Part shown: positions 57,296 to 59,671 of the stretch, piece by piece | Layout of the letters: each line of letters starts with the position of its first letter | How positions within the stretch are numbered: position 1 is the stretch's first letter | Assembly: GCF_023716925.1 (NCBI RefSeq) | Contig: NZ_JAMQQG010000006.1 | Coordinates: forward strand, 1-64,000 | Origin: Frankia sp. R82 | Lineage (GTDB): Bacteria; Actinomycetota; Actinomycetes; Frankiales; Frankiaceae | Length of the DNA stretch: 64,000 nt | Reading direction: 5' to 3' | Position numbers and translations under genes: made by a program | Notes under the pieces: generated by a model | Database searches by the model: none | What the model was told of the DNA's origin: nothing | What the model saw: the letters and a program-made list of their open reading frames with translations, nothing else

Positions 57296-58078
57296 TCAGT
57301 AGTGGATCGGGCCGAGGGTGCCGCCGCCGGCGGCGATCGACTCGCCGGTGACGGCGACCGACAGCGGTGAGGCGAGGAAGGCGACGACCGCGGCGACCTC
57401 GTCGCCGGTGACGGCCCGGCCCAGGGCGATGCGGGCGGAGGCGGCCTGGATCCGCTCGTCGGACAGGACGACGCTGCCGCCGTCGTCCGCGGTGAGCGTC
57501 AGGCCGGGGTGCACCACGTTGACGGTGACGCCGTGCGGGCCCAGCTCGTCCGCGAGGGTCTTGGTGAGCGCGGCGACGCCCACGTTGCGGATCGATCCGG
57601 AGGCGAGGCCGACCTGGCGGGCCGCGAGCCCCCCGATGTTGATGATCCGGCCCCAGCCCTGCGCGGTGAAGTGCGGCGTGACGGCCTGGGCGGTGCGCAG
57701 ATAGCCGAGCACCTTGACGTTGAAGTCGGCGGCGGCGTCGGCGGTCGACAGCGCCACGGTTCCCCCGCCGCCCGCCCCGGCGCCACCGGGCTTCGCGGCG
57801 TTGTTGACCAGAATGTCGACTCCGCCGAAGGCGGCGACGGTCTGCTCGACGAGCTCACGGACCGACGCGTCATCGCCGGTGTCGGCAACCACCGGCAGGA
57901 CCGTGCGCCCGATGCCGTCTTCGGCAAGCTCCGCGGCCGTCGCTTTCAGCACCTCGGCATTTCTCGCGGCGATGACGACCTGAACTCCCTCGGCGAGCAG
58001 CGCCCGGGCGATCGCCCGCCCGATGCCACGGCTACCTCCGGTCACAATCGCCCGACGACCAGCAAGTTGAAGATCCAC
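57296..58078 (-). CDS. SDR-family protein lacking the classical Y-x3-K
   Basis: 260 aa. The cofactor loop TGGSRGIG and NNAA (VDILVNNAAK) are intact, and the fold continues to GESIAAGGGTLG. The active-site region reads INIGGLAARQVGLASGSIRN followed by VGVAALTKTLAD: the usual Tyr and Lys positions are Gly/Ser and Asn, and the Ser is Gly. This SGSIRNV-type variant recurs in actinobacterial SDRs as far as I recall, so it is probably a genuine subfamily with different chemistry rather than a decayed gene. GTG 58078 follows ACGGAGAA. It is the first full gene after the leader peptide and precedes the TauD gene. Confidence 0.82.
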   Translation of the reverse strand: MDLQLAGRRAIVTGGSRGIGRAIARALLAEGVQVVIAARNAEVLKATAAELAEDGIGRTVLPVVADTGDDASVRELVEQTVAAFGGVDILVNNAAKPGGAGAGGGGTVALSTADAAADFNVKVLGYLRTAQAVTPHFTAQGWGRIINIGGLAARQVGLASGSIRNVGVAALTKTLADELGPHGVTVNVVHPGLTLTADDGGSVVLSDERIQAASARIALGRAVTGDEVAAVVAFLASPLSVAVTGESIAAGGGTLGPIHY

Positions 58079-58161: not shown

Positions 58162-58386
58162 CCGGATCCCGAAAACACCGGAATACCGGAGGCAGGCACA
58201 CCGGTGAGAACATCCGGATGCGCAAACCAGTTGCCGGCAGCAGGCCGGTAAAGATCCGCGAGATCGACGAAAAAACCCGAGCCCTCGCCACGGCACGGGG
58301 GTCGGCTCGCGGCTGGACAGGTGGACGGGCTGGCAGTCGGGGTACTGGCCGCAGGCCGGCCGCCCGGCGGGCCAGGGATCAGGAGA

Positions 58387-58467
58387 TCAGTGGCCGCAAC
58401 AGCTCGCGGAGATGACGCGCAGCAGGTCGATGTGCTGGCGGGTGACCAGGTAGGCGGTCCTCAACAC
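58387..58467 (-). CDS. Cysteine leader peptide (attenuator uORF) of the SDR-TauD operon
   Basis: 26 codons plus stop, GTG 58467 to TGA 58387. The peptide contains LVTRQHIDLLRVISASCCGH. The H-[IV]-D-L-L-R-V-x-S-A-x-C pattern is the hallmark of short actinobacterial leader peptides that precede sulfur-metabolism operons; ribosome stalling on the Cys codons (two adjacent, TGT TGC) when cysteine is short should allow read-through into the operon. It lies 309 bp upstream of the SDR start. TTGACC (58497-58502), a 17-bp spacer and CAACTT (58474-58479) place the likely transcription start within a base or two of the GTG, so the peptide would be translated from a leaderless mRNA. Confidence 0.75.
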   Translation of the reverse strand: MLRTAYLVTRQHIDLLRVISASCCGH

Positions 58468-58517
58468 ACGTCAAAGTTGACCACAGTTTCCCGATCGGTC
58501 AAGTACACATGACGTGT
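58466..58517. promoter_or_regulatory. Nested inverted repeats in the leader promoter
   Basis: Outer arms ACACGTCA (58466-58473) and TGACGTGT (58510-58517); inner arms TTGACC (58477-58482) and GGTCAA (58497-58502). The inner right arm is also the -35 box of the minus-strand leader promoter, so a bound regulator would block it. Confidence 0.6.
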
Positions 58518-58960: not shown

Positions 58961-59671
58961 GTGAACCAGACCCGGACCGCGCCGCGGACCCTGGCGGAAT
59001 TCATGGCCGAGCTGCAGGCCAGCCGGGATGCCGAATGGCCGGCCGAACAGCTGCGCACCCATGCCGAGCTCCGCGGGCGCTTGGTCGCACAGGCGGATCC
59101 GTCCCGGTTCGTCGCACCCGGTGACGTCGTCGCGCCGTTCGCACTGCCCACGGCGGGAGGCGGCACGACCAGGCTCGACGATCTGGTCGCTCACGGGCCG
59201 GCGGTCCTGCTGTTCTTCCGGTTCGAGGCCTGCCCCGCCTGCAACACCGCCCTGCGCGGCTACCAGCTGACCCTGGTACCCGCCCTGCGAGAACTGGGGG
59301 TGGAACTCGTGGCGATCAGCCCGCAGGTCCCCGAACGACTGGTGCGGATCCGGGAGCGTCACGGGTTCGACTTCACCGTGGCCAGCGACCCTGACCACAC
59401 GCTGATCGACCGCTTCGGCATCGGCTTCGCGCCGACGGACGCCGAACGCGACGCCTCCCGGGCCCGCGGCGTCGACCTCGGCGAGATCCTCGGCACCGGC
59501 TCCTGGGTCCTGCCCTATCCGAGCGCCGTCGTGGTCGACCAGGCGCAGGTCGTGCGGTTCGCCGACGTGCAACCGAACTGGATGGTTCGCGCGGAGCCGA
59601 CGCGCATCCTCGCGGCGGTCCGTGGGTCCGCCGCAGCACACGCATCGATCACCGAACAGAAAGGATCCTGA
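58961..59671 (+). CDS. Peroxiredoxin-like (AhpC/TSA fold) protein with C-x2-C
   Basis: 236 aa. A thioredoxin-fold redoxin core: DVVAPFALPTAGG, VLLFFRFEACPACNTALRGY with Cys-Pro-Ala-Cys in place of the W-C-P-Y-C of its relatives, and LVAISPQVPERLVRIRERHGFDFTVASDPDHTLIDRFGI. It may reduce peroxides or disulfides. The GTG at 58961 follows AAGGAG. It begins a plus-strand pair with the class II aldolase, divergent from the SDR-TauD operon. Confidence 0.8.
   Translation: MNQTRTAPRTLAEFMAELQASRDAEWPAEQLRTHAELRGRLVAQADPSRFVAPGDVVAPFALPTAGGGTTRLDDLVAHGPAVLLFFRFEACPACNTALRGYQLTLVPALRELGVELVAISPQVPERLVRIRERHGFDFTVASDPDHTLIDRFGIGFAPTDAERDASRARGVDLGEILGTGSWVLPYPSAVVVDQAQVVRFADVQPNWMVRAEPTRILAAVRGSAAAHASITEQKGS

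Follow-up and report, generated by a model that had tools for sequence, protein, structure and literature searches.

A probably leaderless cysteine leader peptide with a fixed UGU codon ahead of an SDR-TauD gene pair in Frankia

Does the short open reading frame that precedes the genes for an SDR-like protein and a TauD-type dioxygenase on the minus strand of Frankia sp. R82 encode a regulatory leader peptide and, if so, what would such a peptide sense? We addressed this in a window of 64,000 nucleotides, the whole stretch of DNA that was analysed, in which positions 58467-58387 (minus strand) translate to VLRTAYLVTRQHIDLLRVISASCCGH, followed by a stop, and in which the frame ends on TGT, TGC and then Gly-His-stop (Table 1). 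The initial annotation had placed a short leader ahead of this gene pair, and the frame indeed exists: the same GTG-started peptide is kept ahead of the orthologous SDR gene in eight further genomes of the genus (in G007, ahead of an SDR remnant) and in the sister-genus genomes G017 and G019; in G006 the two halves of the locus lie on separate contigs and the link is inferred across the contig break. Given this recurrence in related genomes, the R82 frame is, on comparative grounds, more than a chance occurrence. Averaged over all pairs of the nine loci compared, the leader DNA was 89% identical, the opening 300 nt of the SDR gene 82% and the promoter-like element 76%, as against 53% in the leader-SDR spacer and 57% in more distant upstream DNA; the leader is thus better kept than the SDR coding start, unlike the spacer. 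Within the genus the GTG start and the amino acids H12-V18 and S20-C23 are invariant. The expectation that the peptide would be conserved through synonymous changes held only in its first part: the peptide is conserved, but variation outside the invariant core is not mainly synonymous, and pairwise dN/dS was uninformative because of the few sites. The adjacent Cys-Cys pair, which the initial annotation had stressed, did not survive the comparison as a conserved feature, since the orthologs read Cys-Pro and a single Cys is kept, as TGT in every one of them.

Table 1. Features of the leader and SDR-TauD region in the R82 window
Feature	Positions	Strand	Basis or remark
Promoter-like element: TTGACC (58502-58497), 17 nt, CAACTT (58479-58474)	58474..58502	-	Read from sequence; ends 6 nt before GTG
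Leader peptide ORF, 26 codons, GTG start, TGA stop	58387..58467	-	Translation; family match; ortholog conservation
Conserved putative sensor Cys codon TGT, residue 23	58399..58401	-	TGT in 9/9 genus orthologs
Second Cys codon TGC, R82 only	58396..58398	-	Orthologs have Pro at that residue
Candidate terminator-like hairpin followed by U6	58270..58322	-	Fold -24.2 kcal/mol, z -0.9, not significant against shuffles
SDR-like protein, 260 aa, GTG start, without classical catalytic Ser and YxxxK	57296..58078	-	Pfam PF13561/PF00106; alignment
TauD-family Fe(II)/2-oxoglutarate dioxygenase, 287 aa	56360..57223	-	PF02668, E 2e-66

The R82 peptide matched the leader families NF042936 (E 8e-6; 25.3 bits, curated cut-off 45) and NF042934 (E 9e-4; 18.8 bits, curated cut-off 27), and the ortholog from G006 reached 27.8 bits, above the NF042934 cut-off. 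As the R82 frame is short and carries the core H-[VI]-D-L-x-R ... S/A-x-C, its sequence points to a diverged member of NF042934/NF042936, a widespread family of actinobacterial cysteine leaders. NF042934 matches (class-wide count at E up to 0.001) were present in 13/13 genomes of the genus, in 199/297 sampled Actinomycetes and in 0/14 control genomes. Among the genes behind family leaders are members of the sulfite/nitrite-reductase family and genes for 3-mercaptopyruvate-type sulfurtransferases and for SsuA-like, TauB-like, sulfatase-like and alkanesulfonate-monooxygenase-like proteins, named from scores mostly under the equivalog cut-offs. In the R82 genome itself, other leaders stand ahead of genes for a sulfite/nitrite-reductase-family protein, an SsuA-like protein, an LLM oxidoreductase and an ABC substrate-binding protein. 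Behind most Streptomyces leaders a small protein gene comes next; this protein reads as a CysO-type sulfur carrier, and NCBIfam gave it no name at the threshold used. Among the leaders before a small MAIEVRIPTILR... gene (L174-L253, Streptomyces and others), many have a conserved GCCGTACGGC just past the leader stop; CGTACGG was found in 26 of 54 such leaders and is possibly part of an attenuator. A scan of the R82 window against Rfam gave no match.

We next consider the genes behind the R82 leader. The TauD-type protein scored 210 bits against the taurine dioxygenase equivalog model (cut-off 313), and its nearest solved relatives are named taurine dioxygenases, followed by the alkyl sulfatases AtsK and Rv3406. 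The SDR-like protein is atypical, in that the catalytic Ser and YxxxK of classical SDRs were not found in the copies aligned; the active-site places instead read INIGG and GSIRN in the orthologs and INISG and (S/T)(I/V)RN in the paralogs. The paralogs at 50-59% identity adjoin SfnB-like, rhodanese, SsuC/SsuB-like and TauD proteins, and a number of these paralogs have a leader of their own; those in sulfur operons also carry the RN signature, possibly marking a non-classical, sulfur-associated SDR subfamily. The SDR-TauD pair is probably a set of sulfur-scavenging genes. Among SDR orthologs of at least 63% identity, the leader was present in 11/11 copies with an adjacent TauD gene and in 0/11 without, a split that follows one clade and may reflect few events rather than 22 independent ones. 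The co-occurrence of the leader with an adjacent TauD gene supports its link to the SDR-TauD pair, and a tie to sulfur supply is well supported. This co-occurrence, the family matches and the sulfur genes behind related leaders bear out the initial reading of the frame as a sulfur leader peptide, and with it two Frankia genes, for an atypical SDR and for a TauD-type dioxygenase, are tied to sulfur supply in a way that gene annotation alone would miss. In genome G007 (L094, G007:C198:55300-60300) about half of the SDR coding sequence is lost and what is left is not in frame, whereas both the leader and the TauD gene are intact; this breakage, which in a draft assembly may be an assembly fault, hints at TauD as the output that matters.

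The layout upstream of the leader bears on how its translation would begin. The promoter-like element TTGACC-17-CATGTT/CAACTT recurs with the same spacing in eight further loci, and since exactly 6 nt separate this conserved element from the GTG, the mRNA of the SDR-TauD leader is probably leaderless. A generic promoter/terminator consensus scan of the R82 region returned no entry, the TTGACC-17-CAACTT element included. Among the other leaders, TANNNT lies six nucleotides before the ATG in 55 of 76. Between the leader promoter and a class II aldolase gene, R82 and G008 carry a divergent AhpC/TSA-family gene (58961-59671, plus strand in R82); no Prx match was found in the remaining genus genomes, where the aldolase gene itself is divergent to the leader.

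The part of these leaders most surprising to a specialist is the codon of the last motif Cys. This was TGT in 172 of 173 distinct leader cores, pooled from a DNA-pattern scan, the Frankia leaders and class-wide members, as compared to 45 of 213 for the remaining Cys codons of these leaders (Fisher p 2e-65); the leaders are related by kinship and are not independent, and composition is controlled for by the other Cys codons of the same leaders. In the 76 usable leaders of the DNA-pattern scan, which accepted either Cys codon at each of the two Cys positions, the internal Cys was TGC in 73 and the last motif Cys was TGT in 76/76; in leaders whose scored part has just one Cys, this was TGT in 55/56. 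UGU is the rarer Cys codon, with TGT at 14-20% of the coding background. Upstream of it, core residues are kept with free synonymous codons (Asp3 in 173/173, Arg6 in 172/173), as are, less strictly, Leu4 (159/173) and Ala/Cys10 (165/173). Because residues are fixed with free codons while the last Cys is fixed as TGT, selection appears to act on the upstream peptide and on one Cys codon, which suggests a single UGU sensor codon combined with a functional nascent peptide. An RNA-level motif was considered as the cause of the fixed TGT and set aside as not the simplest account, the bases beside the codon being variable. A tRNA-Cys pattern in which anticodon ACA was also allowed had as its sole match in the genome a tRNA-Cys with anticodon GCA, and UGU is therefore presumably read by wobble. 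A literature search that left out the key mycobacterial-leader paper found no prior report of a UGU constraint, which is weak evidence of absence.

Overall, we consider it likely, with a probability of about 0.78, that the R82 frame, a probably leaderless cysteine leader, governs the SDR-TauD operon through a pause at UGU. Judging from the promoter spacing, the transcript would begin on the GTG or right beside it, and ribosomes would load onto it directly. Under scarcity of Cys-tRNA the conserved UGU codon (58401-58399) would occupy the A site of a paused ribosome whose exit tunnel holds the conserved H-I-D-L-x-R segment; by mycobacterial precedent, expression would then run on into the SDR and TauD genes, raising organosulfur scavenging when cysteine is short, whereas with plentiful cysteine the peptide would be completed and the operon attenuated. 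What speaks against a cysteine leader is that the single Cys of the orthologs makes a weaker sensor than mycobacterial polycysteine tracts. The step between pause and operon would have to act across a spacer that varies from 290 to 494 nt and is unconserved in sequence (53% identical, near the level of unrelated DNA), and no conserved RNA structure was found between leader and SDR in the nine loci. In this spacer the C/G ratio, of the kind expected for Rho, exceeds 1 in 8/9 loci (1.07 in R82), a figure that comes with no control set. Three head-to-tail copies of the 16-nt unit CTGTGTCGCGATGGTC lie in the R82 spacer upstream of the SDR gene (58161-58114, minus strand) and were not seen in the orthologous spacers compared.

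Other ways in which the leader might act were weighed against this reading. Were the pause at the Cys codon to decide termination at the hairpin 58322-58270, the position would be right and the hairpin does adjoin a U6 run; its fold, however, is not significant against shuffles, and as the U6 run is missing from all eight other spacers, one of which has U5, this hairpin cannot be the conserved mechanism. A trp-type attenuator, with a conserved terminator and an alternative antiterminator, was not found, the U-run hairpin being confined to R82, and we regard intrinsic termination as distinctly unlikely. Translation attenuation through sequestration of the Shine-Dalgarno sequence, as proposed for mycobacterial leaders, has a precedent in the M. 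smegmatis cysteine genes (PMC13236596), but modelling a stalled ribosome on 7 Frankia orthologs and 55 Streptomyces-type leaders did not raise the accessibility of the Shine-Dalgarno sequence, and the long spacer is unconserved; this we hold to be rather improbable here. The length and divergence of the spacer would also suit a conserved small frame with no regulatory role towards SDR-TauD, such as a trans-acting peptide or a translated remnant. Against this stand the recurrence of the motif ahead of many unrelated sulfur operons, the co-occurrence of leader and adjacent TauD gene and the fixed Cys codon, which together render it very unlikely.

The nascent chain could also be the sensor itself, stalling in the ribosome tunnel in response to cysteine or a sulfur metabolite, with the Cys codon marking the stall site and not reporting tRNA charging. 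In favour of such an arrest peptide, plain codon counting would not require Asp3, Arg6, Leu4 and Ala/Cys10 to be kept with free synonymous codons. An arrest peptide leaves the fixation of UGU over UGC unexplained, and we see it as a rather improbable alternative to the cysteine-codon pause preferred above. Tentatively, actinobacterial cysteine leaders might be two-part sensors that pair a conserved nascent peptide in the exit tunnel with a single fixed UGU, wobble-read by tRNA-Cys(GCA); the codon, not cysteine alone, would then be under selection, and such leaders may give a readout of decoding that is sensitive to wobble, such as the charging of Cys-tRNA taken together with sulfur-dependent modification of tRNA. 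From the fixed UGU it is predicted that a silent change of UGU to UGC should impair sensing, which makes what the leaders measure directly testable.

The R82 leader shares with NF042934 (cis_reg_atten, putative leader peptide) and NF042936 (leader_Ms4527A, Cys-rich leader peptide) the core H-[VI]-D-L-x-R-V-x-S-A-x-C in a short frame and a place upstream of a sulfur-related gene, here of the TauD family, in Actinomycetes; it differs in having Leu, not Cys, after D-L, in scoring under both cut-offs and in preceding an SDR-TauD pair. In mycobacteria, leaderless short ORFs with polycysteine tracts were reportedly described by Canestrari in 2020 (cited in PMC9031893). Common to these and to R82 are a leaderless layout (probable in R82, from promoter spacing), Cys near the stop, sulfur genes downstream and a related peptide, whereas the Frankiaceae leaders have no contiguous Cys run (two Cys in R82, one in the orthologs) and are set apart from the SDR gene by their spacer of several hundred nucleotides. 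Conserved Cys-rich leaderless ORFs lie ahead of cysA2, Rv0485 and nirA in mycobacteria (PMC4633059), and related M. smegmatis leaders have been described as cysteine-responsive attenuators (PMC9031893, PMC13236596). The Frankia TauD-type protein resembles TauD, AtsK and Rv3406 in its PF02668 fold family and its HxD...H motif, and differs in scoring under the curated cut-off of the taurine dioxygenase equivalog. TnaC is a nascent-chain arrest peptide that senses tryptophan. Like arrest peptides of this type, the actinobacterial leaders are short and keep the residues ahead of the presumed stall site at the amino-acid level; unlike them, and with no sequence relation to them, they have a fixed codon at that site, where arrest is putative.
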